From contig NW_011887293.1 of assembly GCF_000151315.2 (NCBI RefSeq), forward strand, positions 493,217-557,216: a stretch of DNA of 64,000 nt, in the 5' to 3' direction. Of this stretch, positions 16,024 through 57,352 are shown in pieces. Each line of letters opens with the position of its first letter. Position 1 is the stretch's first letter. The notes beneath the pieces were generated by a model. The model was not told the DNA's origin and did not search any database. It saw only the letters and a program-made list of their open reading frames with translations. A program made the position numbers and the translations under genes. The DNA is from Capsaspora owczarzaki ATCC 30864. Taxonomy: Eukaryota > Opisthokonta > Filasterea.

Positions 16024-19000
16024 ATGTCTGCCGTTAAGCAGCTCAATGACGGCCCGAGCAGCAATCGCTACCGGGTAAACGAACAGCGCTGCTCTCTCCA
16101 CCACCAGGCACCCCTCCAAAAAAATCGACAAGGGTGTTTTCTTTCATTCTTGTTGCTCGTTGTGCTCTATGACGGGAGAAGCACAGTGACACAAGCAAAG
16201 CGGTTGTCCGAATGCAAATCCACACGCGGCCCTTTCCGTCGCTTCCCTACTGTCCCTCTTTTTCCCGCATCCATTGCCACCGCCCTCCTCTCCCCTCCAA
16301 CCCAGCTAGCTCACTCCCAGACGTGTGCTCACCGCTAAGCTGAGCTTGGGGCAATGTCAACTCCCCGTCAAATCCGCTTCATCCACATGCTTGCTTCCGT
16401 CCACATGGACGACCAGCCATCTCCCACCAGCCATCTCCACCCATCCCACCACCACCTCATCATCCTCTCCCCCCCCCTCGACTCAGCCCAAGACCGCCCA
16501 TGCTTCCATCAGCCAGCAACTCAGCGGGCAGCCTTTTGTGTTCATGCATAGCACACAGATGCTCCTCCACAATGACTTGTTACTCACCTTTTCGGCCTTT
16601 TGGTTCGTCTGCACCTGCACAGTTTCAATCATTCAATGAGCGCATTAAAAAAGTCAGCATCAATGTCGCACATCGTGTTGGAGCCGTCGCAGTGGAACCT
16701 GAGGTGAGCACCAGCGAGATTGTGCCTCGCACAGCCTGCATCGCATCTTTTGGCATCCTCTGAACCACTCAACTGCATTTCACTTCTGCCTTGCTTTGGC
16801 CATCAGGCGGGAGGCTCATTCTTTAACGAAGCGCTGATGAAGTGGCGCGAATTGGACTGCACACGAGAGTTTGTCACTTTCACAAACAAGGTCTACCCAT
16901 TGGTGCAAACGTTGCACCAGCTACTGTTCCACAAGGACGCTGTGATTGATGCCCTGCTTGTGCATCTCGCAGAGCCCAACTGTGCTGCGCTTCCCGCACT
17001 TCTTGAGTATGCGTCTTTTGGGAGATTGTGTGGTGCGTGAGCGCTAACTCACTCCTTCTGATATGTTTCCCTTGGTTCTTTCGCGTTTTGCACTCGCTCT
17101 CTTGAATGGATTGGTAGTCTTCTCGCACAGCTCGCACGAGACTTGCGAGAGGAATTCTACCCCGACTTTCCACGGTCGTTTGTGATTGTTGCGCGCGTGC
17201 TGGAGGAGGCCAACGATCCCCCGGTGATTGAGGCTGCATTCACGGCTCTGTCCTACTTGTTCAAGTTTTTGCTGCGCTATCTTATTCGCGATATGCGGGA
17301 CGTCTTCCGGTTGTACCGGCACTTGCTCGCCTCGGACGTTCGGCCATACATTCGCGCTTTTGCCGCAGAGAGCTTTGCGCTGCTGCTTCGCAAGGTGCCT
17401 GCCAATGCCTTCCACAACTCTGTTGGCTTGCTGCTCAACCTCGCCTTGTGTCAAGACGACGAAATCACCGCCGACACCACCACCGCAAGCCAACAACCGG
17501 CAGCATCGAGCGACATTTCCGGCACAACCCAGTCAACGCTGGCAGCCGACTATGCGCCTTGGGTTTCAGAGTACTCTCGGACAGTCAAACCCGAAGGGAT
17601 GGTTGAAGGCATGTCACTTCTCATCTTTGAGACGGTCCGGGGCGTGCAGCACCAATTTCACTCGCGCGCTCGCGAAATCTTGTCGACAATCTTGGACATT
17701 CTCCTCGAGTTTATCACACATTACGGTGACAGTCATCCAATCTCCGAGCATGTTGGAGAAATTGTGCAAGCAGCTTCCAAACACATGGCCAACTTCACCA
17801 CTCCCGAGTACGCCGGCACCATTATCGACTGCGTGGTCGCCCGCCTTGAGCGGACCCGGCTTGCTTCGCGCCCGAGCGGCGACGACGCCATGCAAATGGA
17901 GGACGGTGGTAGTAGCGACGGCGCCCAGGATGACGCACACTGCTTTGCCCTGCTCCGTGTGCTTTCCGAGTGGATTGAGTATCGTGGTGCCGATCGCATC
18001 CAGGAACCGCTCGTCGTGCTCTCTGCGCTGTCCGCGTTGCTGCAGCACTCGTCCAGCTTGCACATGCGCGATGAGATGCTTGAGCTGTTGGTCGAGTCCA
18101 TCCGCCACATTCTGCTCGCGCGCATCAGCGCGACTTCCGGCCGGACCCAAACCAAAAAGACGGCAAGTCTGAACGCTCAACTGAGCGCCCGCTTTGGCAA
18201 AGACCGCGTCAGCTCCATGGACAGCATGAGCTCAAGTGGCAGCAGCAGCAGCAGTGCAGCAGCTTCCCGTGCCCAGCTCGTTGCCCTTCTTGGAGAGGTG
18301 ACCGTCCTGCTCCCTGCGCTGGCCGACAGCATGCTCAACTGCCTCCCCTTCCACCTGGCGACCGCCTTGCTACCGCCCTTCCTTGACGTCCCTAACTGTG
18401 CTCGTATCTTTTTGCCGCGAGCGCTGACTTTTGCCTCGCGTCACTACACGCTGCACACTCTTCCCAGCATGCTCTTCGCCCGCGACATTATCGCTCGGCT
18501 GGACGGCATCTCTGACTCGCAGCTTGCCTCCTCCGGGGTTGTGGCGTCGATTCACCGAACTCTCAAGTTTCCCGAAATCTCCGCAGAGACACCCTTTGCC
18601 GCTGCGCTGATGGCGCTCATCGAGACCTCGAGCAAGAAGCTCAAGGCTGGTTTGACCAAGGGCAAGACCACCACCAGCACTTTTGTGGGCCACACGGAGT
18701 TGGCGACAGCGATTGCGAGCGTGCATCTTGGCTTTGCCTTGTTGGTGCGAATTGATGGCGCGGCGTTGCTTTTGCCTCGTATGCTGCCGGTTCTTGCCGT
18801 GCTGGATGAGCTGGCTCGCACGGTTCTCGTGCCGCAATCCACCGCGCAGAGCCAGGTCTTGAGCGCTCTCGCTGCTGGGTGGACGCTTGCACTTCCGTTT
18901 TTGGCGGCGCAGACCCAACGGCTGCAGCAACATGGCCGTACGCCATTCACCTTGCTCGAAAACTTTGCTCACCACCTCGACATTCTCGAGTGTGTCGACA

Positions 19001-22000
19001 AGTGGTTTGGAGCATTGAGCGAGGCTGCGTCGTCGCCCTCTGCCGTGTCTGTGCCTGCCACTCACGCCTCCAAGTCCAAGCCATCCCAGCAACCGCTGCA
19101 GGTCGACTTTATCAATGCGACCACCGGTTTGCTCACCCTCAGCACCCTCAACGAGCTGCTGACGTTGCTCGTGCCCAATCTGAGCTCCCCGTACTCTTGC
19201 ATTCGCGCTGCGACGCTTGTTCTGCTCACTCGGTGCGAGCAGCTTCCGCTGCTGGCCATCGACAGCGACACGGCCGATGAGCGTGCCAACCCGCGCTCAT
19301 GCCTCGTGTTTTCCCACCTGCTTCAAGCCGAGCAGACCCCGGCCGATCTCGAAAATTTCCGAACTCGCCTCATGCACGTGCGGCAAGTCGACACGGTCGT
19401 TGTGGCTGGCCGTCTCCCCACAGTGTACATTGAGCCGGTTCTCCGCTGTCATTTGGCCACCCTTTATCTCAACTTTAAGCCGCTCTGGGCTCCCGCCATG
19501 GAAATGATTGGCAACATGGCGTCGCGCATTCCGGAAGCGCAGTTTTGGCAGCAATTCTTTTCGACGTTTGAGGCGTCCCATAGCCGCGTTCGCGCCTCTA
19601 CCTACTTGACACTGCTGCAAGGAGATGATTTGAACGCTGAAGAAGCAGAAGACGACGACGAAATGGACGAATCCGACGAAAAACAAGCCGCTGATGATGC
19701 TGTCGCGCGCTCGGCATTCATTGAGGCTGTTGAAACAGCACGTGCCTCCGAACGACCAGATCATGTCAACTTTCACGTCTTGCTGTTGCAACTTGCTGCG
19801 ACAGACGCTGTCATGCCGTTCATTGAACGTCACGGCCGCGAATTGCTGCCCCTCTTTTTCGACTTTATCGATACCGAGTACAACAAAATGTACGAAGGCA
19901 AGGGAGCCCACCAAGACCTTCGTTCGCTGTCTGACGACGCCGATGCGGCAGATGACGACCAGGAAGAGGATGCGGAAGATGCATCGAATGCTGCCGTAGC
20001 GGAAGCCGAGCCTGCAGCTGATGATGCTGAAAGTGCTGCTGCCACCGCCGCTGCTGGTGCTGCTGCTGCTGCTGGCACTACGGACATCTCGGCAAACAAC
20101 AAACCGCTCCGAGCACTCGTCGGCAAAAAGCTTGGTGGGTTTTTGGGCATTCTTGCCAAGCTGCGCAATCCCAAGGCCGCCTACCAGTCTGATCGCTTGC
20201 TTGCACTGCTTCTTGAGTTGCTGGCCAAACCCGAGGCTGCGCTGCAAGCAAAGGCGCTGCAATGCATTTTGGCATTCAAGTTCCCTTATTTGACCCCCTA
20301 CCGCGAGCCGTTGGAGCAACTTTGTGGCGAGCAATCCTTCCGCAGCGCATTGCTGGCTCTCGACATGGATGCGGATGCCGGTTTGGTCAAAAAGGAGCAC
20401 CGCCAAGGTCTCTTGTCTGTCATGTCGCGCCTCTTGTATGCCAAGATGATTAGCCGAGCTGGCGGTCGAAAGCAGACGCTGTCGTCAAAGCGCTCTGCCG
20501 TCCTCGGCTACCTCATGTCGCTGTCCGAAGAGGAGATTGCGCCGTTTATCGACTTGGTCCTTGAGCCTTTCCTGGCGTCGACCCTCGCCAACATGGCTTC
20601 GTTGGCCTCGTCCGCTGCTGCACACAAGCAAGCTCACTTGCCGCCGACCGCCTCGGTGACGGTGCTGGAACTGCTCGACGTGTCTCGCCGGTCGCAACTG
20701 GCCGAGTCCTTGGTGCGCGGCTTCTCGTCAACAACTGGCGACGACGACGACGGCGGCGGCTCGCTTGACCCTGCGCGGGTGGTGCCACTGCGCAAGCAGC
20801 TTGGTTTCCTGACGGTCGTGTTTGAAATCATCCAAAAGCTGGGCGTCTTGGCGTTGCCGTACGTCGATGTCTGCTTTGCCGTAGTGCTGAACCTGACAGC
20901 CAACGCGTCGACGCTCCTCCAGTCACACGCCGTCACTTCCATCAGCCCAGCTTTCTTGACACCACTCAAGTCTATCCGCCTGATGGGTTTGCGTCGCCTC
21001 TCTGAGCTTTTCCGGGCCTTCGCTGACCACAATTTCAACTTTGGACTGCCCATGCTGTTCTCCGCCGTGGTCAATCCCCGTTTGCCACGCTTCCAGCAGG
21101 AAACCGCTCAGAGCTCGTCCGGTTTGCTCGATTTGTTTGTTGTCTGGAGTCAGCACCCAGAGCTCGCCCTGTACCTTGCACGGAATGTGCAGTACGGCTC
21201 AAACCTTCGGGCTGTCCAATCCTCGGAAGCGACCTCTGCCATGGACACGACGACGGCAGCTACAGACTCGACCGAAGCGCTGCCCATCTTGATTGCCGTG
21301 TTCAACTGTCTGTCCAACCCTTCCATCACCCACCAGGTTGCCGGCAGCGTGCTCGACCTTGCTGGAAACGTGGTGGCGCTCCTGGAGACGCATCCGGCGA
21401 TTGCCAACGAGGTGCTTCTGCCGCATGTCGGATGCCTGTTGCAGAATCTGCAAGTCATGATGTTTGGCTGGCTTGGTGACAAGGGCTACCTGCCAGTGTT
21501 TGGAAAAGAATTTGCAGAGTCGGATCGCCGCTTTGCCGCCTCGCGTCTCGCCAGCACCCAGCTTGCCACCTCTGTGCAGCGGAAACACACTGGTCAGACG
21601 CTCTCACAGCAGCTGGTGCGTCGCAACCTGCAACTTCTGGCCAAGCTTAGCCACTTGACGACCGATCCTGAGCAGTGCCGCGTTCTCGTGTGCCTGCTGC
21701 TCCCCTTCCTGAAGAAGAGATCGGTGGGCAGCGTCGCCACGCAATCTGCCCGTGTGAGCATTCTCGGTATTGTCGAACAGTCCATTCCTCTGCTGCCGAT
21801 GACGTCCGCCTTCTACGCATACCTGAGCCAGCTCTTTGCGACGCTCGAAGGCCGTGAACCTCGCACGCTGCTTTGCCGTGTCTTTGCCGCCATTGCTGCT
21901 CATCACGATCCCAGCGTCCAACTGACTGCCGACCTGCTGGCGCGCCTGAACGCCTACCTGCCCGACGCGCTCGACGAGATGGATTACGACACCCGCCTTG

Positions 22001-25000
22001 TTGCGTTCGCCGAACTGAACGACTCTGTGGCTGGCAACTTAACGTGCCACCAGCTGCTTCCGTTGGCGCACTGCTATGTGCACTTTTTGCATGCGGACGA
22101 TTTTGGTATTCGTGACAACGCATCGTATGGTCTGCTGCAACTCATCCGCCGAGTCCATCTTGCCAATGCAAAGCACGCTGCTGGCGTTGCATCGAAAAGC
22201 AGCAGCAAAGGCGGCAAGAAGGCCACGAAACAGCAGCAGCAGCAGCAGTCCACCGAGAGCGCTTCCACGTCGAGCACGCTGAGCATTGACTTTGCTGTTT
22301 GGACACCTCATGAAGTTCAGCTCATCTTTGACGAGATTATCTTGCAAATCATCGTGCCCGCCATCAAGATTGGCGTGCGTGTGGCGCAAGATGCTGTTCG
22401 CAACGAAGTGGTCGGGCTGCTTCGGGCGCTTGTCGAAAAGTTCCCCACGCATCCACAGTTTGCCGACATGACGTGCTTGCTCAACACGCAAGACCCCGGC
22501 GCGCCCGAAGGCGCCGATCTTCCCGCAGCCGATGCGGACGAGTCGGAAACGATGCAACCTGAAGCCACCGCGGCTGCTGCATCCACCTCTGATGCCCCTC
22601 TTGAGATGGCATTTGCGCTGGCCAACACGCAGGCGATCGCTGCCCATGAGGAGGCTGCCTTCTTTGTGAACATTTGCCACGTGCAGTTGCATCGCCGTGC
22701 GCGTGCCATGCGCATCCTCGCGCGTTGTGCAGACGAAGGACGGCTCGCCCAGTCCAGCATTGTTCACTACTTTTTGCCGCTGATTTCGCATGTGGTGATT
22801 GAAACCACGCGATCGAGCGATCACAACATTGTGACGGAAGCCATCCGAACTGTGGCCATGCTCGCTCGCCAGCTCAGCTGGAGTCACTACTACAAGGCCT
22901 TCCAGTCGGCCCTGCGCACCCTCAAGAAGAACTCGGAGCTGCAGACGACCATTGTTCGCCTGCTTGTGGCCATTATCGAGTCCTTCCACTTTGATCTGCA
23001 ACCCTCTGAAGCCGATATTCTGCTGAGTGCGCAAGAAGAGGTGATTGAACAAGGCGGCGAGGAAGCAGACGCCAAGGACAAGTCTGCTGAGAATGTTGTA
23101 GAAGCCGAGGACGATGAAGATGACGACGAAGGAGCCGACGAGGAAGGCCAGGACGAACCCGCGGCAATGGCAACTGCCGACTCGCTCGAGGCCCGCATTG
23201 CTGCTGCCGACAAGATGAAGCAGGCTGTGCTTTCGCGCTTGTTGCCTTCGCTTCACAACGTGCTTGTGACCAAGAAGGGTGACACGGAGCACGTGCGCTC
23301 GCCCGTTGCCATTGCGATTGTCTCGCTGCTCATGCGCTTGCCTCGCGCTCTTCTCGACGCTCGTATTTCGGGCGTGATTGCGCGTGTCTGCAATCTGCTC
23401 AAGTCGCACAACCAGCAGGCCCGTGATGAAGCCCGCGCTACTTTGGGAGAAATGCTGCAGACTGTTGGTGCAGAGTTCCTCCCCGTCTTTCTGCGCAACC
23501 TGCAAAATGCCTTGGCTCGTGGCTATCAGCTGCACATCCTCGGCTTTACCTTGCATGCCGTCCTGTCGCGTGTGCTGGCGTTGCACACTGCCAACCCCGT
23601 GCCGGCCTCGCAGGAGGCGGTGGACAGCTGTGCTCCCGACATTGTTCGCATCATTCTCGACGACACATTCGGCGAGGTTGGCAAGGAGAAGGAGGTTCAA
23701 GGCATCACTGCCAAGTCCAAGGAAGCCCGCTCGCGTCGCGGTGGCGAATGCATGGAGCTTCTCTGCCGCCTCATCTCGTTCAAATTCTTCCCGTCGGTCG
23801 TCTTGTCCCCAATGTCCTCGCTGTTGGAGGCCATCAACTCTGTGTCGGACAAGAGTCGTATTGAGGAGCTGCTGCGCCGTGCCGCGTCCGGTCTGACCGT
23901 CAATCCCTCCGTCCAAATTCCGATGCTGCTCATTTGCGTGTACTCGCTGCTTGAGCGAAGTGTAGAGCAGCTGCGAGCAGCGTCGAGCAAGAAGAAGGCG
24001 GGCAACAACAGCCCCGCGGCGATCGAAGCTCGCAACGCCAGCAAAGCCACTGCCGAGAGCTTTGAACGACCCATGCTGATCAACAGCTCCACCGCCAGCG
24101 GCCCGATGCCCACGGCTGGATTTGACGACGATGACGACGCAAGCCGCAAGCCTGGCAACCGTCGCACCAACGAGAGTGTTGGTCTGGCCGAGCAGCCCTT
24201 CTCGAGCCTATCCCGTCTCGACATTGCCTTCATGGTGCTGCCGGCTGTTCGTCGCGACCGTGCCCCGTCCGCCGAGACCATCGCAAACGCGCACGTGTTG
24301 GTGGAGTTTGGCTTGGTTTTGCTTCGCGCCTTCTTCAAGCGCGACCTTGTTGCCCGTCGCCGGCCCAACCTCGGTTCCGCCAAGCCCAGCAACAAGAAGG
24401 CAGCTCGTGCAATTCCGGCGGCACCCGCAGACGCGGCTGAGCCCATGGAAGTGGACGAAAGCACGGATTCGTCGGCCAACAAGGAAGCCGCGGTCGACGA
24501 GGCACCTGCGGTCGACGACCAGGACGCCTTGTACGTCGAGACGCTCCAGATGCTCGACCCGCTCGTGCGCATTCTGTGCGACTGCTTGGTCTCGCGGCAT
24601 AGCCGTGTCTTGAGCCTCAGTCTCAAATGCTTGTCCTTCATGTACTCGTTGCCATTGCCAACGATGAGTGCCATGCTGCACGTCGTGGTGGAGCGCGTTC
24701 TTCGCTGCATCTCTCGTGCCGGCCAAGGCTCGCAGGCGAGCGAACTCGTGCAGTCGTGCATGCGCGCGGTTATTGCGCTGATTCTGCGCAAGCCCGCCCC
24801 CGGCTCGCGCAGCACGGAATCGCTCTTGCAAGAGAAGCAGCTCACTGCGCTCCTTGCCCTGGCCAAGGAGGGCATTGAGGCCGGTGACCATGACCGCCAG
24901 ACCACAACGTTCGCATTGATTCGCGCGATTGTGACGAAAAAGCTCGTGTCGACGCAGCTGGTTGATGTGATTGAACATGTCGCCGATGTGTCTGTGCGCA

Positions 25001-27118
25001 GCCAGTTTGTGCACGTCCGTCAAGCGTGCAGCCACCTCCTGGTTGCATTCATTCTCGATCATCCCACTGGCCAGCGCGTCAAGGTGCGCACGCAGTTTAT
25101 TCAGTTCCTCGTGAACAACCTTGGCTACGAGTACCAAACCGGTCGAGAGAGTGTGATTGAAACCATCCACACCTTCTTGCTGAAAGCCCCGGCGGCCCTG
25201 ATTCCGGAAGTCTGCGAGTACCTCTTCCTTGCCTTGGCACCGCGTCTTGTGAACGACGAAGCTGCCATTTGCCGCGAAATGTGCATGACGGTTGTCCGCA
25301 CCCTGGTTGCCCGCTGCGCTCAGACTGCGCCCGACAAGGAGGAGGCACTGTTCAACCTGACAATGCAGTGGCTCGGCAGCACCAAGGAGTCGATGCGTCG
25401 CATGTCTGCCCAGATGGCTGGTGCCTTTGTGAGCGGAACGCAGCCAGACGCTCGCGTGCAGCTGGTCATTGCTCGGCTCGTCGAGTGTGTGTCGTTGGCC
25501 GATTGGCAACGGCAGCAACGCGAACGCCGCCTCGCCGCTCGCCGCTCGAACGACGATGACGACAACGATGCCGCCGAAGCCGAGCAAGCGGACGACGAAC
25601 ACCAGGTCGAGGCGGCCGAGGCTCAATGGCAGCTTGTGTACATGGCGCTTTCCACGCTGAGCAAGCTCATTCAAGCAATGCCCCGCATTGCAGAATGGCG
25701 CGAATCAACTCCTCTGTGGGAGGTGATGCCAGCCCGGCTACTGCACTCGCATAGCTGGGTTCGATTGGCTGCTGCGCGCCTGTGGGGTTTGGCATGCTCC
25801 AAGTTGGATGTGCCTGCTGTGGTCGCACTCTGCACGGCGCCAGCTGCTGCTGCTCCCGAACCCGAGCCGCTCACTCAACGTCGTGGGAAACGTGCTCAGA
25901 CTCCTGCTGCTGCTGCTGCGGCTCCTGTGAACAAATTGGCCAACCATGCGCTGGCCGTCTACCTCACAGGGCATGGCAATGCTGTGCGCATTGCTCACTC
26001 GTTGTGCCGTCAGATGGCGTCGCGCATTTTGGACAATGCGCTTGCCGAGCAAATTGTCAAAAATCTGTTCTTTGTCTCCAAGCTGCTGCTCTTGTGCCCG
26101 CCCCTGAACGTCACCTTGGACGCGCGCGAGCGAACCCGTGACCAGCGCTTCCACGCGCGTCAGCTCGCTTCCGAACGGGCAGACCAAGCCGACGCGACTG
26201 CAGACGCCAATCGTGCGGCTCAGGCGTCGTCCGAGGCCGTACTTGGCGACGCTCCCGACCCAGATGCAGCCACGGCCGTTGACAGCGACTATGAGGAGAC
26301 TGCTGACATCCAAGAAACAATCCAGGATCGCGACGGTCAGACAATTTCCGTGGAGGATGCCCGTGAAAAGTACTGCGGTCTCACATGGATGTTCCGGAGC
26401 CTTGCGTTCACGACTCGAGTCGAGTACACTAAAAACCCTCGGAATATCGTTCAGGTGAGAGTCGAGTACTTGTGTTCATTGAACTTTTGGTTGAGGTGTT
26501 GAAGCTCATCGTTGACTTGGTGTTTTTCTTTTTCTCTTGTTCTTTTGGTTTCGTCGTCTAGCGCTCGCATATTCTCAAGTGGTTTGCGGCGATGGCGGCA
26601 ACGCTTGGCCCTCACCTGGTCATTCCGTTCTTGGACATTATGCTTTCTCCAGTCTACCGCATTGTCACGGATGACTCTGGCACCAAAAGTGAGGGGTTCT
26701 TGATTGTTTTTGTTTTGATGCGAACGGGGTGTGTGATCAAACTGACTTTTGAGCGGTTTTTGCTTTGTATCTCTGCTTTTTATTGAACCCTCCCCCCCTT
26801 CTTCCTTAAACAGACGAGAGCTTGATCACTCTGGGAAACGAAGTGGTCGATTTGCTGCAACAAGTGGTGGGACCCACGCGTTTCCATCAGACCTACAATG
26901 CCGTGCGCACCCAGGTCCAGAATGTGCGCTCCGACCGCAAGCGCAACCGCGTCATCCAGGCAGTTGTTGATCCTGCTGCTGCCGCGCGTCGCAAGATCAA
27001 GAAGAACCTCGGCAAGCGCGAAGCGCGTCGCAACAAGATTGCCGCGTTCAAGCCCGACTTGCAGCTGCGCCGCACAAACAAGCGAGTTCGACTGGATAAT
27101 GACCAGGATTTTGACTAG
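16024..27118 (+). CDS. UTP20: Small-subunit processome component UTP20 (DRIM)
   Basis: Exons 16024-16074, 16623-16703, 16807-17006, 17118-26454, 26562-26688 and 26814-27118 give about 3,366 residues, well above human UTP20 (2,785). The N terminus aligns with the family: YRFQSFNERIKKV, ALMKWRELD, LLAQLARDLREEFYPDFP, TALSYLFKFL and RNFAAES-like RAFAAESFALLLRKV. The whole protein is helical HEAT-type repeat. Extra length comes partly from acidic and Ala/Glu-rich insertions, for example around 19640-19690, 19950-20090, 22200-22260 and 23030-23200. The C terminus is basic (RKIKKNLGKREARRNK), as in the family, which acts in the nucleolus in 18S pre-rRNA processing. Exon 4 alone is 9.3 kb, in sharp contrast to the small exons of neighbouring genes. 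The upstream exon 1 assignment rests on phase and NRYRF similarity. Confidence 0.92.
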
Positions 27119-28140: not shown

Positions 28141-29945
28141 TTACAGCATTAAGAAAGTCAAAATATCAGATAGCGACACGATTCCAATCACCCGCTTGTT
28201 GTTGTCGACGACGATCAAACGATGAACATGGGTGCAGACGATCGAGTCCAAAATGCTCTTGAACGAGTCGGTTTTGAGACACGTCACAACGCCTTCGAAG
28301 CCCTGGGTGATTGAGGTGGAGGTTAAGGGGGGGGAGGAAGGGGCACAGCAGCAAAGTTAGGTGCGGCACTGATGATGAAGAAGAAAAGCGCAAAAGTCTA
28401 ACAAAGCTGATTTCGAATCCTCTTACCTCTGCACGATGAGAGAGAGCTTCAAGCACAGGGACGTCCAAGTTGTTATAGGTTCGCTCGCGCGCGAGATTCT
28501 GCAGGGGCCAACGAATGATGAGATGCAGGAATGACGTGCAAATAAGGATACGAAAACAAACAAAAAAAGCGCCCTTACAATGACATCGTATTTGGCATAA
28601 ACGTCAATAACAACACCTGTTGAGAGGCAGGGAAAGATAAAAACGATTGTGAGCGAGTCAATACAGACAAACAGGCACAAGAAGAACAAGGCGCATGCTT
28701 ACCGGTCTCGTCGACAATCGGCAGACAAGACACGCGCTTCTCGGCAAACACGTTGAGAACAATGATGAGCGGCGTGTCGGGCGAGGCCGTGGCAATGTTC
28801 TTGTAGGTGCCAATGTTGAGCTGGCCGATCGAGTGCGACAGGAAGGCCGGTGGCGATGTCTGCTTCATCGAGTTGTACATGAAGTGGAGGATGCGCTTGT
28901 GGGTGAGGACGGCGACCGCGCTGTTGCTGGCCGAGTCGATGAGCGGCAAGCGGTGGATGCGCGACATGACGAGAATGCGAGCAGCGTCATAGAGGGTCGC
29001 CATGGGCTCGACCGAGATCATCTTGGCGGGGAGTTTGGTCGAGACGACCTCGCGCCACGTCTGGATGCGGTGCTCCTCGACCTCGTCCATGGTGACGAGC
29101 GGCGACTTGTAGTAGAATCGCAGAATGTTGATAAAGTCTGTGACGGTGAGCATTCCGACAAACTGCTGCCTGGACGAGTCCCAGATGGGGGCCGAGCGCA
29201 GCCCGTTCTGCAGGAGTGCGTAGAAGGCCTTGCGCACGAGCAGGTTGACCTCAAAGACGATAATCTTGCCCGAGTCTGGCACCAGGTCGTAGCAGGTGTG
29301 CTGCTTCATGATGGCAGTGTACAGCTTGCGCCCTTCCAGGATGCCTGCTGGGTCGTGGATGGCAGGCGCAGACGACGCTGGGCGGGATCCCGCTGGTGAC
29401 GCGCCGGCAGACACTGCAGACGACGGACCGCCGCCAGGTGTGCTCGGAGTGCCCGCGGACGCAAAGTGCGCTGATGCAGGGTTGTTGCCGCCACCAGCCG
29501 CATTGGGAGTGGCGGCAGCACCAGCGGCGGAAGCGAGCGGCGCAGTGAGCATTGAGGAGGACACGGACGCCGACGACGACGACGAAGGGGCAGACGCTGC
29601 AGCGACATTGGCACCGCCGCCAGCGAGCGCGCCCGCAGCCATTGCATTGTTCAGATGGAAGTGCTGGTTGCTGTGCGGCTGCTGCTGCTGCTGAGGTGCG
29701 CCCAGTGCGGACGACGCCGACGCTCTCGGCTGGTGGGTGATAAAGCCGCCCCCTGTTGCTCCTCCTGCTCCTCCTGGTGCTCCTGGTGCTCCTCCTGCTA
29801 CGAACGATGATGATGATGATGCTGCTGGAGCAGTGCCCTGCTGCTGGTGGTGTCTGCTGCTTGAAGAGCTGCTGTTGTGGCGGTGGTGGTCGTCGACAGC
29901 CATCGGCATTGCATACGAGCTCAGATCGTCCTCCATTGCTTGCAT
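28141..29945 (-). CDS. PRKAG: AMP-activated protein kinase gamma subunit (SNF4/PRKAG)
   Basis: Exons 29945-28703, 28616-28579, 28498-28427 and 28302-28141 give 504 residues. A disordered N-terminal extension of about 220 residues (His, Ser, Gly, Ala, Gln rich) precedes four CBS motifs. Family blocks are AFYALLQNGLRSAPIWDS, VGMLTVTDFINILRFYYKSP, THKRILHFMY, IGTYKNIATASPDTPL, RVSCLPIVDETG, YDVI, YNNLDVPV, HRLIVVDDN and GIVSLSDIL. These match human PRKAG, including the basic residues that bind adenine nucleotide phosphates (HRLP, HRLIV). It senses AMP/ATP as part of the kinase trimer. A second ATG three codons in (29936) is possible. The gene converges on the VOC gene (239 bp between). Confidence 0.95.
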
Positions 29946-30400
29946 TCGAACAGAAAGGGATGACGGGTGAATGAGAAAATGAGAATGAGATTGAATGAAA
30001 AAAAAAAAAAAGTGGACTGAATATGAAAAAGTGCAAACTGAGTGCGAGTTCAAAGCAAAAATGAAGCGGAAGTAGTGCGAGACAGAGGGGAAAGAGTGAA
30101 AAGAGTGAAAAGAGTGAAAAGAGTGGAAAAGAGCGAGAAAAAAGCAGCTGAGCGTTCAGTCACCCACCACCACTACTGATGCTATCATTGATCATTCATC
30201 ACTCTTCACTCATCATTCAACATTGATTATTCACTCATTCTGATCATCCTTCACTCGTCATTCACTCGTACTGATCGTTCATCCTTCTCACTCATCGTTT
30301 CAACTTGAACAGTCTCAGTCTCTCGCTCTCTCTTTCGATAGCTGCAACTTTTTCTTTCATTTTTTTTCCGTTCCACCACAGTTCAGCAGCACCACCAACC
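29946..30400. promoter_or_regulatory. Divergent intergenic region between AMPK gamma and the INTS5-like gene
   Basis: About 455 bp separate the two start codons. The middle holds tandem AGTGAAAAG units (30095-30135) and repeated TCATTCACTCATT-like words (30175-30300). A T-run of about 9 lies near 30360. No gene was found; both promoters are presumed to lie here. Confidence 0.45.
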
Positions 30401-36249: not shown

Positions 36250-36562
36250 GTACTCGAGCCCGTGTGTCTGCTTTGAACGCGTGGCATCTTGTGAATTTGT
36301 CGCGCTCTGCTCAGACTGCCATTTTCAAACAGCAGATTATGTTCTCGCAAGAGTAGTAGAAGTACATTTTCATTGATACAGTACTAGTACGAGCCAGATG
36401 GGTGCAGCTCCAAAACAGCCTGAATTAAACATGCAACGCAACATACACTCAAACATCAAACACCTAGAGCAGCTCACGGAACAAAGGTCTGGTTAAACGC
36501 GCCCTGCTTGAAAGAAGTCAGACGCACCCGGATAATCGGGCAGGTGCTGTGGCGATGGATCA
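36250..36562. terminator. Shared 3' intergenic region of FRG1 and the LRR gene
   Basis: A 313-bp gap between the two convergent stop codons with no coding signal that I can support. Both 3' UTRs are expected here. Confidence 0.3.
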
Positions 36563-39500
36563 TCACTTGAGCACACGCAACACAGACGCATGAATTGTGA
36601 ACACAGGCGCTGACTCTAGCCTCTAGAGGTGAAACAAGTCAAGTCAGAAAGAAAATATAGTCACAAACACCCGCAAGACAAAGTGCAACTCACGAGAACT
36701 CGCAATTCGCGGGAAGTCTTTTGGAAAACAGCTGCACAACGCTTGGCGAGATCTGGTTTTGTGATAGACTGGTGCAAGCATAAACACGTGCAAAATGTAA
36801 TGTCAACGAATGTCCCGTGCTCGTTAGCTCAAACCGCGGCATGTAGAGCCGCGCACCCATCGGCCCTGCACCGCAACGAAACGTACGAGAGTTTGGACAG
36901 TTCTGCCTTGTTCCAAAGCGCAAATCCAATTGCCTGTGCTCCAGCGTCTCCAATTTGATTGTCGTGCATTCTGTGCCAGACAAACATCAGTATCAACCCA
37001 GATGTGAGCGAAGCTGGAGATGCAACCAATAGCCAATCGTGCGGCTACAATACCTGAGTGCAGTCAGTACAGCCGATCCCTGTATGCCTTCAGCGATGGC
37101 ACGAGCTCCACTGTCACCAATCTGGTTGCTGCTCAAGCTGTATCAAGTCGTTCAAATGAGAGCCGTAGGATCAGCATGCCCCCTGTGACACCACCAACAT
37201 ACTAGAGCATAGCCAGCCCCGCTTTGTTCCGAAGCGCAGATCCGATCGCCTGAGCTCCCGCGTCGCCAATTTGGTTGTTGAACATACTAACACAGGCAGA
37301 AATCAGCAGCAAGTCACTCTTGAGCCAACCTGGACATGTAACCGACATTCAAACGTGCGACTAGCATACTCGAGCACAGCCAGCGCAGTCGACGTCTTCA
37401 GTCCCTCAGCGATGGCACGGGCTCCAGAGTCACCAATCTTGTTACTGTTCAGGCTGTAGCCAAGTGATCGAATTAGAGCCGAACACCAAACAGACACTCT
37501 ACACACCAGAACGTACCCGAGCACGGACAGGTTCGGCTTGTTCCTAAGCGCAGATCCGATTGCCTTCGCTCCTGTATCACCAAATTGATTGGTGTGCATC
37601 CTAACTCAGGCAAACATCACAATCAAACCACTCTTTAGCGGAGGTGGACATGCGACCAAGGAGAAACGTGCGACCGCTGTACCTGAGCTCAGTCAGCGCT
37701 GTCGACGTTTGCAGGCCTTCAGCGACAGCACTAGCTCCGGCATCACCAATATTGTTCTCTTCCAAGCTGTATGAAAGTGCCAAAATAAGCGCCGCGTTCC
37801 CACACAGGGCACTGTACACCAGCAGAACGTACTAGAGCATTGACAGATTCGCTTTGTTCCGAAGTGCCAATCCGATCGCCTGTGCTCCCGCGTCGCCAAT
37901 TTGATTGGTTTGCATCCTGTGATGACAAATACCAGTCGCAACCCATTTTTAGCAAACCTGAAAATGCAACAGAATGTCAACGGTGCGCCTACAATACCTC
38001 AAGTCAGTCAACTCAGCTGACGTCTGCAGGCCCTCAGCGATTGCACGAGCTCCGGCATCACCAATCTTGTTCTCATCCAAGCTGTATCGAGTGGCTCAAA
38101 GTAAGCGCCGCATTCCCACACAGTACTGTGCATCGCCAGAACGTACTAGAGCACGGACAGATCTGGCTTGTTCCGAAGCGCAGAGCCGATCGCCTGTGCG
38201 CCCGTATCACCGATTTGGTTGGTATCCATCCTAAGTCACGCAAATATCAAACCGCACCAAGCCACTCTTTAGCAAAGCTGGAAATGAGAGCCAAGTCAAA
38301 CGTGCAACCACCGTACCTGAGGTCAATCAACTCAATCGACGTCTGCAGCCCTTCGGCGATGGAACGAGCTCCAGCGTCACCAATCTTGTTACTGCTCAAA
38401 CTACATCAACGCGCTCAAGTGAGAGCCATGTGACCAATAGCCCCCTGCGATGCCGCCAGAACGTACTAGAGCATGGACAGGTTGGCCTTATTCTGAAGCG
38501 CAGATCCGATCGCCTGGGCTCCTGCGTCACCAATTTGATTGGCATGCATCCTAACTCAGACAAGCATCCATTGTAAGCCATTCTTGAGCAAAACTGGACG
38601 TGTAATCAAAGTACAGACGCGCGACTACAATACCCGAGCTTAGCCAGCGCAGTGGAAGTCCTCAGTCCCTCGGCGATGGCACGAGCTCCGGCATCACCAA
38701 TCTTGTTCTCGTGCAAACTGCATCAAGTAGGTCAAAATAAGAGCCGCGCTCCCTCAGGACACTGTCTACCACTGGAACGTACTCAAGCATTGACAGGTTT
38801 GCCTTGTTCCCGAGCGCAGCTCCGATCGCCTGAGCTCCAGCGTCGCCGATTTGATTCGAACTCATCCTAAGACAGACAAATATCAGAAGCAAGCCGTTTT
38901 TGAGCAAAGCTGGTGATGGTATCAAAGTCAAATGCGCGACCGTACTACCTCAGCTCGGTCAACGCAGTCGAGGTCTGCAGGCCCTCAGCAATGGCACGAG
39001 CTCCGGCATCGCCAATCTTGTTCTCGTCCAAGCTGTACCAAATCGGTCATGTTAGAGCCGCGTGACCGACAGTCCCTGAAGAGACCAGCACTAGACCATA
39101 CTTGAGAATACTCAGGTTTGCCTTGTTCCGAAGCGCAACTCCGATCGCCTGCGCGCCTGCGTCGCCGATTTGATTCGTATCCATCCTAAGACAAGCAAAT
39201 ATCAGAACCAAGTCATTCGTCACCAAACCTAGGGATGTACGGTTGTAATACCTGAAGTCAGCCAGTTCGGGCGACGCCTGCAGGCCCTCAGCGATAGCAC
39301 GCGCTCCGGCATCACCAATCATGTTGCTGGTCATACTACATCAAATCGCTCGAGTCAGATTCTTGTGATCAACCACCCCAGGACAGCACCAGAACGTACT
39401 AGAGATTACACAGGTTCGATTTGGTCCGCAGCGCCAATCCGATCGCTCGAGCTCCGGCGTCGCCAATCTCGTTGTCCTCCAAACTGATTTGACACAACTC

Positions 39501-39771
39501 GGGTGAATTATCGTCTTGAACGACACGCGTCCTCGCTATTGTGCCTTACTCAAGCAGCTGCAACTTGCTGTTCTCCTTGAGACCCTTGGCAATCACCAAC
39601 GCGTCCTCGTCGGTGATTTTGGAGCTCTGGAGGCTGTGGTGAACAAGTCAGAGACTTGGTAGCCATGACCAATGACCACGTCTCAGATTTGAACGATACT
39701 TACTGGACCACATTGCCAGCCTTGGCGATTTCAAACAAAACTCGCTGCCGTGGCGTACGTGCAGATGCCAT
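36563..39771 (-). CDS. RI-like leucine-rich-repeat protein made of one-repeat exons
   Basis: Twenty-one exons give 570 residues. Exon 1 (39771-39704) encodes a short leader (MASARTPRQRVLFEIAKAG). Exons 2-19 are each exactly 84 nt, all with phase-2 borders, and each encodes one 28-residue LRR; the first is 39633-39550 and the last 36970-36887. Exon 20 (36768-36694) is a shortened repeat and exon 21 (36620-36563) a short tail. Repeats alternate: type A ends NKIGDAGARAIAEGLQTS, type B reads NQIGDAGAQAIGxALRNKANL. This is the LxxNxIGDAGA pattern of ribonuclease-inhibitor and NLRC3-type LRRs, a protein-binding horseshoe. No NACHT, kinase, signal peptide or membrane segment was seen. Function unknown. 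The last two exons are less certain. Confidence 0.85.
36887..39633 (-). repeat. Tandem array of 84-nt LRR exons and short introns, about 316-bp two-exon period
   Basis: From exon 6 on, type-A exons start at 39032, 38717, 38400, 38081, 37766, 37453 and 37137, so the unit repeats every 313-319 bp. Within a unit the A-to-B intron is 81-86 nt and the B-to-A intron is 63-66 nt. Intron sequences also resemble each other between units. This shows that the unit duplicated as a two-exon genomic block rather than as single repeats. The first two A-to-B introns (66 nt) differ from the rest, marking an older or separate part. Confidence 0.85.
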
Positions 39772-52190: not shown

Positions 52191-55100
52191 ATGTCTCGGC
52201 ATTTTACTCAATCAGACACACAACCAAGCCAAGCAGATCGTCAATCAGACACGCAACCCATCACCAACGACAACGCCAGTCGAAATCAGATGTTTGCAAC
52301 CTCCTTCCCTGCTACGTTCGACTTTGCGTCAGAGTTCAACGTGTGGTCCGAGACATGTCGCTCAGGCGGCGGCAAGTACCGCTCTGTTGGTGACAATCCA
52401 TCGTACCAACTCGCACAACACATTGCAACACTGTTCGGTGAAACACTCCCGTCGAGCGCCGACTCCCAGCTGCCAAGCTGGAAAGTGTTTGCTACTCAGT
52501 TGCTACTCTTGCCTGTACTGGGACTCTATATTGCGCAGCTGGATTCGGTACGATGCACTGTTGTTTCCAACAAATGGTTGGTCACGCATGTTGTTGCTGA
52601 ACTCACGTTTGTTTGCTGGCGTCTATGCTTTTTTTTAGAATATTATCCTTATTACTAGTGTGGCAATAGCCTTGTTGTTTGCTGTCTCTCTTTTCCTGGC
52701 GCTGCTGCGCTTCCCAATTGCAAGCGTTCGATGCTCGGCATTCGGTGTTCTGTTTTTGTGTCATTGGAGCGTTCTGGCTCTTGCCCGTCAATCTAACTTC
52801 CTGGGATTGGTAAGAGTCGAGCAGTCACTCATGGTGTGCGCTTTGGTCTGCAACACTGACCGTGTGATTATCGCGGGGGGTGGGCTTTTAGATGCTCTTC
52901 TGGCCTCTCGTCCAGCTGTTCTTCGTGGAGTCGAGGCGAAAGCTCTTGCAGATTGCTGCATTGAGCTATTCATTACTGCTGGCCGAGTTGGTTGTCACCA
53001 TGCCTAGCGTAAGTTTCGCGTCAAGGTACATGGCGGCGCTGGAACCGCTCTTTCTGGCCGCATCAGCGCTATTACTGTTTTCAAGTTCCCCAAAGAGTGA
53101 CCAGAGTCGCACGCATGCGCCTCGTGTAAGTCGTGCTCGGGTGGATTGCCCTGGTAGCAAGCGAGTCTCGAGTCTTTCCAACTCACCCCTTTGGTCGCTT
53201 CCAGTTGCCGATAGATGCCATGCAACAGCACCAAATCCTTGAGGCGATTCTACAATCGAGTGGAGATGCTCTGGCCGTGTTCAACGCCACTAGCGATGTT
53301 CTCTGCTCGAGCACCAAGTTCCAGCAGCTGGTGGGCAGCGCCTCCCACCCTGGTGCGCTAATCAGCGACAGTGTGAACGCCGCAACTACGGATGGCCAGG
53401 AGGCCCCGATCTTTCCAAGCCCCCTCGATCTGCTCGAGCCTGAAAGTCACAGGCAGGTTCAGCGGGCCATCACGAGCATGTTTGAAGCTGGCTCCGACTA
53501 CAACACGGCCGACCTCGATCTGTGCAAGGTGAAAAGCGAGGAGGCGCTTCCCTTGCATGTGCGCAGCACGCTCTTGCCGCCCCTCAAAGCCGGCTCCTCG
53601 GGCTTGATGCTGGCCATGTTTGACGATCTAGCTCCCAAAAACCGACTCGAGTCTGCCTTGCTTGAGGCGCACCGATCCAAGCACGCCAACGAGTCCAAGA
53701 GCCGCTTTCTCGCCAACATGAGGTTTGTTAGTCTCGGTTTTGCGCAGCGCTGTTGCTTGTGTTTTTCGTTTGCGTTTGCGTTTGCGTTTGCGTTTGCGTT
53801 TGCGTTTGCGTTTGCGTTTGCGTTTGCGTTTGCGTTTGCGTTTGCGTTTGCGTTTGCGTTTGCGTTTGTGGTTATTCTTTTTTGCTTTTGCCTTTGTGTC
53901 TGTGTGTATTGTTGGTTTGCTGCGACTCACTTGTCCTCCCCTACTCTCTATTGGCTACACCATAGTCACGAGATTCGCGTTTGGCTCTCTGGCATTCTTG
54001 GCATGATACACCTGCTGGAGGGCACACAATTGACAGAAGAGCAGCACGAGTTCCTTGGCACGATCAAAATGTCGGCACAAATATTGCTGACCGTCATCAA
54101 CGACATTCTGGACTTTTCCAAGATCGAAGCAGGCCAGCTCACGATCGAGCGCGTCGAATTTGACATCTTCAACACGATCGAGATGGTGGTCGAGCTCTTG
54201 TACCCAAGTGCCGGCAACAAGAATCTGCTGTTGCAGTGCTTTATCGATCCTCGCATCCCGACCAAGGTCCTTGGCGATCCTAGTCGTCTCCAGCAAATCC
54301 TGGTCAATCTTCTTTCCAACGCCATCAAATTCACCAAGAAGGGCCGTGTATTCCTCAAGTGTACTCTCGAGAATGAAACATTGGAAAATGCCACCGTCTT
54401 GTTTGAGGTAACAGCGAGCGACGTATTTGTTTTTTATGGAAACATTCTTTCGTGTCGTCTGGGTTGTTTTTGGCGTTGGCGATGTGGGGATTTTTGCTGT
54501 GGTGGGGGTTTTTGGGTGTATCTGCTCTGTACCTTGACTCTGATTGGTTTGATGGTGCTGCTTGTTTGGTCCTATAGGTACACGACACTGGTATCGGGCT
54601 GACGCCCGACACATTGGCACGACTGTTCCGCCGGTTTTCTCAAGAGGACGCCTCGACGACGCGCAAGTTTGGAGGAACTGGCCTTGGGCTTGTCATCTCA
54701 AAGTCGCTGGTCGAGTTGATGGGCGGCAGCATTGGCGCCGACAGCGTCAGTGGCAAAGGCAGTCGCTTTTGGTTCCGTCTGCCGGTCGGTGTCGTGGCCG
54801 AGCAAGCAGATACCGATGATTCGAATGCCGATGTCAATGCTGGCTTCTTCCGCCAGACCTCTCCCCTCGACGATGCGTCCTCGCACTCCAAGTCCTCAGA
54901 CTCGACAAGTGGCACAATGTCCTTGCCGCACAGCCTTCATTCGTCGCAAGGCGATCTGATCGCAAGTGTGGAAGCGGAGCAACCTGAATCATCGCTCAAC
55001 GAGTCTGGAACGCTCCCCCAGGTGCCAGCAGCACCCATGCTTGCTCCCGCGAGTACACCTCCTCGCTCCCGATCAGCGTCGCGAAGCAGATGCGCCATCT

Positions 55101-57352
55101 CGCCAATTCCCGGCCGCACTCCCCCGCGGGTCATTGTCGTGTCGAGCGCCGAGTACATTCGAGATATTCTTGTGCGCTACTTGGATGCCTGGCATCTTGA
55201 TCATGCCGAATGCAGTACGCTGGGTGAGTGCGACAAGCTCATTCGCAGCTGTTTGCAACAACAAGACACGGGCCCCTCCAATGCTTTTGTCTCGGCAGAC
55301 TTTGCGCCCTCAGCTCGCCAAACTCTGATTGGCAGCGACAACGCGACCGGGGTGCTCTCGTCTCGCGAACGCTCGCTGCTCGCAGAGACGATGAACGAGC
55401 ACGACAAGTACTTTGATCTGGTGGACGCTTCGGTTGAGCACCATTTCGTGAAGCAGCCATCGCGCCAATCCGATGCGTCCCACCCCCATGCACCACCATC
55501 TCGCCCAGCCCCGGGTCCCGCTGCGGACCCGGGTGCAAGTCATGGTCACATCATTGTCATTCTGGACTGTCGCGTCGGTATGTCCACATTGGTGCAGACG
55601 CTCGGGGAGCGATATGTTCGTCTCCGCAAAACTTCCAAATCAGAGCAGGAGGCCACTCTCAAGAGTGACTCTGAGGCGTCGATGCCACTCACGTCAGGAA
55701 GCGACGTTTCACTTGACACTGCTGTGGCCAAGCCCATTCGGCCTTCGCATTCCTCTACCTCGTCGCTATCCGATGAAGCTGAAGGCGGTGATCAAGATCA
55801 TGTCCCCTCCATTGAGCGCTCCCCTGGACACTCCCAGAACCGCTACGACGACCTCTTGGAGCCTCATGACGACTCGCTGTGGGCGTTCCTGGCGCATCCC
55901 AACGTTTTTCCCTTGTTCCTGTTCTCGTCTGAGCACCCAGTGCCGCCCCTCCCCCTGTATAGTTCCAACCACCGGTCGTTGGTGGGTCCGTTGCGTCAGT
56001 CGAGCATTTTCAATGCCATCAATGGGTTTGCCATGCAGGACTGCGCGCTTTGTGCGCCAAGGCCATCACACTCCAACTCGGCCCCCCTTGACGCGTCTGC
56101 GTCCTTGTCTTCGTTAGATCCGGACTCCCGCGCTTTGCGAAAGGTTTACCGTTGTGGTTCCATGCTGAATTCCGGTTTGGCGCATGTTTCCGCTCCAACC
56201 AGCACGGCGGCGGTCAAAGCCGCACCATTCCCGAGCTCCCCGCACTCACCATTAGCCGTGCCCGCGTCCGTTGTTCCTTCCTTCATTTCTGCTGCCGCTG
56301 ATGCGTCGAACGCCACAACGCTCACCACATCGGCGCAGCTTGAACAGCGAAAGCACGACCGTCGCCACCGCCGACACCCGAAACGTGATGAGCATGCTGA
56401 GGCGATCGCCGAAAGTCGCGACTCGAGCAAGTTGTTGGCAGATGAGACTACTCCAGGCTCATTGGAGACCCCGCCCTCTTCAGCCGATCTCGGCGTCCAC
56501 GAACACAGGCGTCGCCACTCGGTAAACGACAATTTTGCTCGCTCCGAGTCCGCGGCTGGCGATGCTCAAGAAGCAACAAGGGTGGATGCTGACGTTGGGT
56601 CTGCGCCGCCTGCTCCCTTGCCATCCCCTCCAGCCGTGCATCTGGGCCCGACTGCTTCGTTCACGCCGACTGACGTGGCCACTGATCTTGGCAGCCCGCG
56701 ATCGATCGCCGGTTCTATGGGTTCGGCTCCGATCGCCAACAAGACGAAAATCTTGCTGGTCGAGGACAATTACGTCAACCAGAAGGTCATGTCCACTATT
56801 CTGGCCAAGGCGGGCTTCCACGTTGATGTTGCCAACCACGGCAAGGAGGCGCTGGCCATGCTCACCAAGTCGCGCGAGCATCTGCTCCGCCACTCTTCCG
56901 ACTCTGCATCGGCTCTGCCAGCTAAGTGGACGGACTATGCCGTCGTGTTGATGGATTGCCAAATGCCCATCATGGGCGGCTATGAGGCGACGCAACACAT
57001 CCGCGCGATGGAGCAGTCGCTTATCGCGACCAGCGCTGGAACGCCACTACTACGTTTGCCCGTGATTGCCATGACTGCAGAGGCCATGGAAGACAATCGC
57101 GCAACTTGCCTTGCGTCAGGCATGTCCGATTACATGTCCAAGCCAGTGAGTCAAGCTACTCTCTGGCGCAAGCTGCAATTCTGGATTTCTTCCACCGAGG
57201 CCATCGTGAATGAAGCCGCCCCATCTGTTTCCAGCCTGTCGGTACCACAGCAGAACATCCACCACTTTGATGCTTCTGCTTCTTCTCGACCGTCTTCGCC
57301 ATCGCACATTGCGCGTCCGTCCTCCCCCTCGCACCGACCGCGCCAACAATGA
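52191..57352 (+). CDS. Membrane hybrid histidine kinase with PAS-like, kinase, degenerate receiver and receiver domains
   Basis: Exons 52191-52547, 52639-52809, 52892-53125, 53205-53722, 53966-54407 and 54578-57352 give 1,498 residues. About six hydrophobic segments lie between residues 95 and 240. A PAS-like region follows ([17 protein letters not shown]). The H box is SHEIR, with phospho-acceptor His428; the N box is [11 protein letters not shown] boxes are DTGIG and GGTGLGL. A region that looks like a broken receiver ([15 protein letters not shown], then [11 protein letters not shown], then [12 protein letters not shown]) lacks the acidic pocket and holds a long Ser-rich insert. The C-terminal receiver is intact ([11 protein letters not shown], acceptor Asp1367 in [18 protein letters not shown]). 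It should autophosphorylate and relay to Asp1367; ligand and partner unknown. Confidence 0.9.
53768..53867 (+). repeat. TTTGCG hexanucleotide array inside a histidine kinase intron
   Basis: About 16 uninterrupted copies of a six-base unit in the intron between 53722 and 53966, just upstream of the exon carrying the SHEIR H box. It is read as Phe-Ala repeats in the upstream exon frame, so retention would not stop translation across the array itself. It is not a known telomere unit. Confidence 0.9.

Follow-up and report, generated by a model that had tools for sequence, protein, structure and literature searches.

A kinase-less gene of alternating 84-nucleotide leucine-rich repeat exons in Capsaspora owczarzaki, and its probable origin within a family of LRR-kinase-RING genes

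The 64,000-nucleotide stretch of the Capsaspora owczarzaki ATCC 30864 genome analysed here (the window; contig NW_011887293.1, positions 493,217 to 557,216) carries on its minus strand a gene (39771-36474 in window coordinates) for which a 21-exon model is predicted, encoding 598 aa with phase-2 junctions throughout. This gene is probably a leucine-rich repeat (LRR)-only product of a kinase-dropping recombination in a family of LRR-kinase-RING genes, its LRRs being of the ribonuclease inhibitor (RI) type. The encoded protein would be an intracellular RI-type LRR solenoid, in which an N-terminal cap is followed by two classes of repeat, A and B, arranged as A(BA)8, and then by a C-terminal cap. 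Intact family members would comprise an LRR array, an RLK/Pelle-IRAK-like kinase and a RING, in that order; recombination between subfamilies would have dropped the kinase and half of the RING, so that what remains is LRR-only, apart from half a RING at its end.

The first-pass annotation of the window described 18 consecutive 84-nucleotide (nt) phase-2 exons, each encoding one LRR, and this description proved accurate. A scan of the minus strand for 84-nt blocks bordered by AG and GT found exons 2-19 (39633-39550 to 36970-36887) to be 84 nt each, 18 of 18 being preceded by AG and followed by GT, in a single open register with phase-2 junctions. From the ATG at 39771 the frame is open across 598 codons with all 20 intron borders intact, and retention of an intron would break it in 18 of 20 cases, introns 4 and 15 being the exceptions. 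The nine A repeats of the gene differ from one another in a coding pattern, as judged from differences of 0.204, 0.116 and 0.409 at codon positions 1, 2 and 3, and Tandem Repeats Finder reports a 316-bp period over 36880-39187 (score 1553). Chance or mis-called repeats are ruled out by the 18 exons with intact borders together with the perfect A/B split described below; the 84-nt exon array is confirmed as real at the level of sequence, with its splicing a prediction. Rfam and tRNA scans each gave 0 matches.

The predicted protein is of the RI-type LRR class, as indicated by its match to PF13516 (LRR_6; 2.5e-69, 224 bits, 17 stretches). In a phmmer search of solved structures, ribonuclease inhibitors and axonemal LRR proteins were among the top relatives (1dfj, 1.8e-40), RI chains being the best or near best matches in the PDB. 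The array region contains two Cys. No transmembrane segment was evident in a 19-residue Kyte-Doolittle scan, the highest mean of which (1.63) lies in the RING remnant, and no signal peptide was apparent in exon 1, which encodes only ~22 residues ahead of the LRR cap. A start resembling that of exon 1 (M[AG]..xxxRQ..LF..AKS) precedes the arrays in most relatives.

The 17 repeats of exons 3-19 make up the A(BA)8 array, the consensus of which is M..NQIGDAGAQAIGxALRNKANLSxL for A and L..NKIGDAGARAIAEGLQTSxALxxL for B. The earlier claim of alternating repeat types thus holds for these exons, but not for exon 2, an N-terminal cap outside both classes. The A-to-B introns measure 64, 69, 65, 66, 65, 66, 63 and 65 nt and the B-to-A introns 66, 82, 83, 86, 81, 82, 83 and 83 nt; as had been noted for most units, the intron sizes alternate, 14 of the 16 falling in the two size classes originally proposed.

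Sequence probes agree with a genome of Capsaspora or an extremely close organism: both GAPDH qPCR primers published for C. owczarzaki (PMC9170242) have one exact match each, in facing orientation ~0.5 kb apart, and the 17-residue CoSrc2 N-terminus (PMC6001378), preceded by Met, is matched at 18 of 18 residues. Against this, a 90-nt coYki targeting arm and one coYki primer, the latter with one mismatch allowed, had no match. A search for paralogues, advised in the first-pass annotation, was productive. A protein search of the organism's own genome (27.46 Mb in 29 contigs) gave at least 130 matches, and A(BA)n arrays, i.e. 84-nt phase-2 exons that alternate between A and B and are flanked by an N-cap and a C-cap exon, as in the window gene, were found at 13 loci, the window gene included. 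One of these, L041, was omitted from the array counts because it almost duplicates L042 (98% identical over 2356 bp; the two lie ~67 kb apart on opposite strands of G000:C15), leaving 12 distinct loci, and three LRR matches downstream of the L031 kinase, which belong to a separate gene, were dropped before counting. The 12 arrays contain 17 (window), 21, 27, 15, 11, 9, 7, 13, 9, 15, 5 and 11 repeats, a range of 5-27 in which all values are odd. Repeat length is 84 nt in 156 of 160 cases, the remaining four (87, 87, 81 and 81 nt) being multiples of three. Across the family, A-to-B introns have a median of 65 nt (61 of 70 within 62-66) and B-to-A introns a median of 83 nt (57 of 70 within 80-88).

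The two repeat classes were compared over the 156 exact-84 exons of the 12 distinct loci, with A/B labels given by position in the array, independently of sequence. The nearest neighbour carries the same label for all 156 repeats, and in a FastTree phylogeny, the kind of test named beforehand as able to refute the two-type description, one split parts A from B without error (support 1.0); the description likewise fits the 12 distinct loci, every one of which runs A(BA)n. Mean identity is 74% for A-A, 74% for B-B and 49% for A-B. The window repeats resemble those of other genes (A-A 0.741, B-B 0.744) and each other (0.747 and 0.748) at similar levels, and the nearest neighbour lies within the same gene for only 3 of 17, leaving a weak case for strict homogenisation within the window gene.

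The origin of the window gene is approached through its last exon, which matches the end of other loci. In L031 and L032 the corresponding end is part of one open frame, 425-426 aa long, that encodes a kinase and a RING, the Pfam matches of this module being PF07714 (kinase, 2.1e-41) and PF13920 (RING of the L031 type, 2.2e-9). The solved kinases closest to the relatives' domain are SYMRK, BRI1, FERONIA, BAK1, IRAK1 and IRAK4, and every distinct catalytic-loop motif found has HLD or HFD, i.e. is non-RD. Kinase and RING occur in one frame at 8 of the 13 A(BA)n loci (L031-L036, L039 and L043). At L038 and L042 the kinase frame ends without a RING, so that, with L041, three of 13 have kinase homology without an in-frame RING; a kinase match is absent from the window gene and from L037. 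Genome-wide, the interval from kinase start to RING end is stop-free at 23 of 117 places among the matches listed. When the window was compared with a kinase-RING query, only query residues 303-353, the RING part, were matched, and no RLK/Pelle-IRAK kinase domain was found in the window gene.

Homology between the window gene and L031 ends at 36636 (L031 position 5632) and resumes at 36592 (L031 position 6785). Between these breaks L031 has an extra 1152 bp, encoding the kinase and half of the RING, as against 43 bp of filler in the window. The left flank of the junction is best matched by L039 (74.5%, 219 bits; L031, 69.6%, 133 bits) and the right flank by L031 (91.2%, 383 bits; L039, 78.5%, 115 bits). 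Because its two flanks match different subfamilies best, the window copy looks like a recombination product of two subfamilies rather than the result of a plain deletion, although such a deletion with subsequent gene conversion may also have produced it. The tail lacks the first RING half and its last zinc-ligand Cys is replaced, CPIIR standing in place of the CPICR or CMICR of relatives (CPIIR differs from CPICR by two base changes). The window gene thus has no complete RING, and a Pfam search of the exon-21 tail alone (E up to 10) gave no match.

The earlier statement that no effector domain is attached is correct in that the window gene has no kinase, but this looks like a secondary loss: kinase and RING are present at eight of 13 loci and half a RING survives as the tail of the window gene, which together point to a derived state. 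A simple free-standing ancestral LRR gene is ruled out by the relatives' kinase and RING and by the RING-remnant tail. The interpretation given in the first-pass annotation is, as a whole, partly supported.

It had also been proposed that the duplication unit is a two-exon block and that repeats could be gained or lost. The former is upheld by the odd-length A(BA)n organisation at 12 of 12 distinct loci and by the sister loci L035 (nine repeats) and L036 (seven), which align with a single 304-bp gap extending from within one A exon to the same point in the next A exon, i.e. one two-exon unit. Arrays may thus lengthen or shorten by A+B units, since with 84-nt phase-2 exons any whole number of units preserves frame and fold. 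As for gain or loss, the one-unit difference between L035 and L036 is in its favour, but the window copy gives no sign of a recent gain: recent repeat expansion there is ruled out by a best within-gene match of only 73/84, the best match in other loci being 74/84. Many pairs among the last repeats of L031, L032 and L033 agree at 79 to 84 of 84 bases, while upstream repeats differ, and one B repeat is 83/84 identical between position 3 of L035 and position 1 of L042, observations which suggest exchange between loci of the family.

Variability along the repeats was assessed as entropy per codon, using 84 repeats of class A and 72 of class B. Values are highest at codons 2, 3 and 26 (2.75-3.31 bits); the junction codon reaches 2.91 bits where it follows A and 2.55 bits where it follows B, and other codons are mostly below 2 bits, with A codon 23 the main exception. 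From RI-type LRR geometry, we take codons 2, 3 and 26 and the junction codon to be the solvent-facing concave positions of the LxxLxLxxN strand. As the introns cut the codon between two strand leucines, exchange at introns would recombine the ligand face. Between A repeats of the window gene dN/dS is 0.21, below the values for five relatives (0.25-0.37), and between its B repeats 0.34, inside the corresponding range (0.27-0.58); over all repeats it is 0.275 (A) and 0.434 (B).

Several points weigh against the reading of the window gene as a variable, LRR-only family member. Its splicing and protein are predicted from DNA alone, and the weakest point of the model is the exon 20-21 junction, the acceptor of which sits in filler without homology to relatives. 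Were intron 20 retained, translation would end directly after exon 20; of two acceptors close by, the first likewise runs into a stop. A codon 23, which lies outside the concave sites, is fairly variable (2.57 bits). Positive selection is not claimed, since pN exceeds pS at only some concave codons, namely codon 3 in A and B and, in B alone, codon 2, but not at codon 26. Finally, dN/dS between repeats mostly reflects history prior to the truncation, and so is no proof that the window copy works now.

Parts of this organisation have counterparts elsewhere. In most human NOD and NLRC genes each exon encodes one 28-aa LRR, with its border inside the β-strand (PMC6642158), and the window gene shares with them RI-type 28-residue LRRs, one per frame-preserving exon, and a border in the strand. 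By contrast with these genes, it has two strictly alternating types in separate exons, and its relatives carry a kinase and a RING; the 598-aa window protein has 11 Pfam matches (E up to 10), none of them NACHT or NB-ARC, and is thus not an NLR. NLRP exons are 171 bp and encode two LRRs of 28 and 29 aa, with alternating LRR types (PMC6642158). With ribonuclease inhibitor and NLRPs the window gene has in common two alternating types and strong similarity to solved RI chains, but it gives each LRR its own 84-nt exon, both types being 28 aa. The contrast with ribonuclease inhibitor drawn in the first-pass annotation is fair, although one-LRR exons had already been reported for human NOD and NLRC genes (PMC6642158).

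Brown-algal ROCO genes, candidate immune receptors, have phase-2 72-bp LRR exons that undergo shuffling (PMC11378527); they share with the Capsaspora family one LRR per phase-2 exon, many copies and variable strand residues, and differ from the A(BA)n arrays in their 72-bp exons, another LRR class and a ROC-COR output. The window protein has no Pfam match to Roc or COR and is not of this type, whereas L047, described below, has both. With plant LRR receptor kinases and Pelle-IRAK the relatives share a non-RD kinase nearest SYMRK, BRI1, FERONIA, BAK1 and IRAK, the non-RD state being associated with innate immunity (PMC8463890); they differ from the plant receptors in having RI-type LRRs and a RING on the same chain, and the window gene has no kinase. 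The signal peptide and transmembrane helix of plant-type LRR-RLKs were not found in the window protein, to which that scan was confined. The literature searched, which did not include the Capsaspora genome paper, yielded no account of an LRR-Pelle-RING family in this organism.

The layout of the family is reminiscent of that of immune receptors, and we infer an immune-type sensing role for it. Intact members are most likely cytosolic sensors, a placement suggested by the two Cys in the array region of the window protein and the lack of an evident transmembrane segment there; they would bind varied ligands on the concave face and signal by phosphorylation and ubiquitination through the kinase and RING. 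Two relatives start MG....S, which presumably fits a myristoylation site. The window copy may be a ligand-binding decoy, a regulator of its relatives or an early-stage relic. That it acts as a kinase-less LRR-only decoy or regulator within an NLR-like recognition system, assembled from other parts before animals, is a tentative proposal that we consider rather doubtful.

The relic option merits close attention, as it is quite possible, if short of probable, that the window copy is a pseudogene in decay, in which recombination has destroyed the kinase and RING and the LRR array has not yet acquired stops. The half-RING without its first half and last zinc-ligand Cys fits such decay, as do other relics in the family, i.e. 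the split kinase homology of L041 and the kinase-RING fragment without LRR exons at L040; the tail and 3' region are, moreover, 91% identical to L031, so the truncation may be recent. On the other hand, all 18 array-region exons, the 20 intron borders and the frame over 598 codons are intact, and L037, a second A(BA)n locus without a kinase match (13 repeats), indicates that LRR-only products may recur.

The similarity to ribonuclease inhibitors and axonemal LRR proteins in the phmmer search, together with the fact that LRRs of the RI class are often protein binders without an immune role, raises the further alternative of a structural or housekeeping scaffold (ribonuclease inhibitor-, RanGAP- or axonemal-like), non-sensing and with neutral array growth. 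This is unlikely given relatives with a kinase and RING, variation focused on the concave face and arrays that differ from 5 to 27 repeats across loci. It also appears improbable that the regular array evolved for alternative splicing, whereby skipping of one or two exons would give isoforms with altered binding faces. Every array exon is indeed frame-preserving and phase 2, and cases are published for human NLRs (PMC6642158) and brown-algal ROCO genes (PMC11378527), but duplication history alone also predicts such regularity, and the donors and acceptors of the array exons look uniform, no exon being obviously weak.

Should the sensing role hold, Capsaspora, a genetically tractable unicellular holozoan for which gene targeting by homologous recombination has been published (PMC9170242), would possess a large LRR-kinase-RING family comparable to the receptor kinases of plants, the NLRs of animals and the ROCO receptors of brown algae. 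One could then ask directly whether modular LRR exons and a non-RD kinase output predate animals or arose by convergence. The A(BA)n arrays, with 5 to 27 repeats in intact phase, provide a clean natural record of repeat-protein growth by two-exon units.

The kinase-RING module also occurs in other settings. It follows uniform 84-nt LRR exons at L045 and L046. At L047, 84-nt LRR exons are followed by ROC-COR (Roc 3.5e-19, COR-B 1.7e-14) and then by the same kinase and RING, whereas at L049 an SH2 end (weak, 2.6e-4) and a proline-rich linker precede the module in one frame. At L048, L005, L006 and L013, uniform 84-nt LRR exons are accompanied by kinase sequence, and the stretches examined show no RING. 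Uniform exact-84 exons number 38 in eight loci.

Some individual loci warrant mention. L047 (G000:C19:101000-106500, minus strand), a ROCO-type relative sharing the module, has a second RING-like stretch after the first, and L049 (G000:C1:3672500-3677600) joins a phosphotyrosine reader to the module. L037 (G000:C9:722000-728500), the start of which is MGGANSS, has no kinase match in the stretch examined. In both L041 and L042, RING-like sequence lies beyond the kinase frame, and the kinase homology of L041 is in two pieces. At L040 (G000:C3:1364500-1370500) a fragment with the end of the kinase and the RING is present, with no 84-nt LRR exon found.

Table 1. Predicted exons and associated features of the LRR gene, and neighbouring minus-strand genes, in window coordinates.
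Feature	Position	Strand	Basis
Exon 1: ATG and N-terminal segment MASARTPRQRVLFEIAKAGNVV	39704..39771	-	predicted
Exon 2: N-terminal LRR cap (SSKITDEDALVIAKGLKENSKLQLL), 84 nt, neither A nor B	39550..39633	-	
Exon 3: A-type LRR, 84 nt, array start	39400..39483	-	
Exon 4: B-type LRR, 84 nt	39252..39335	-	
Exon 5: A-type LRR, 84 nt	39102..39185	-	
Exon 6: B-type LRR, 84 nt	38949..39032	-	
Exon 7: A-type LRR, 84 nt	38783..38866	-	
Exon 8: B-type LRR, 84 nt	38634..38717	-	
Exon 9: A-type LRR, 84 nt	38467..38550	-	
Exon 10: B-type LRR, 84 nt	38317..38400	-	
Exon 11: A-type LRR, 84 nt	38147..38230	-	
Exon 12: B-type LRR, 84 nt	37998..38081	-	
Exon 13: A-type LRR, 84 nt	37833..37916	-	
Exon 14: B-type LRR, 84 nt	37683..37766	-	
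Exon 15: A-type LRR, 84 nt	37517..37600	-	
Exon 16: B-type LRR, 84 nt	37370..37453	-	
Exon 17: A-type LRR, 84 nt	37203..37286	-	
Exon 18: B-type LRR, 84 nt	37054..37137	-	
Exon 19: A-type LRR, 84 nt, array end	36887..36970	-	
Exon 20: degenerate C-terminal LRR cap, 75 nt, common to relatives	36694..36768	-	
Filler, 43 bp, with predicted exon-21 acceptor; kinase and first RING half here in relatives	36593..36635	-	
Exon 21: half-RING remnant and C-terminus (VSACVHNSCVCVACAQVMIHRHSTCPIIRVRLTSFKQGAFNQTFVP)	36474..36615	-	
PTPLA	14272-14937	-	Pfam
Surp/RRM protein	7112-9412	-	Pfam
CBS-domain protein	28575-30155	-	Pfam
2-hydroxyacid dehydrogenase	60060-61064	-	Pfam

The four minus-strand neighbours in Table 1 are ordinary genes, none of which is an LRR gene by Pfam. 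On the plus strand, a 3146-aa open frame with no internal stop (17062-26502) matches UTP20 (PF07539, 4e-128). HisKA, HATPase_c and response-regulator domains are spread over two overlapping plus-strand frames at 53130-57352, which are probably one intron-bearing hybrid histidine kinase, and a TTTGCG repeat of 17.7 copies (53763-53868) lies inside the first of these frames.

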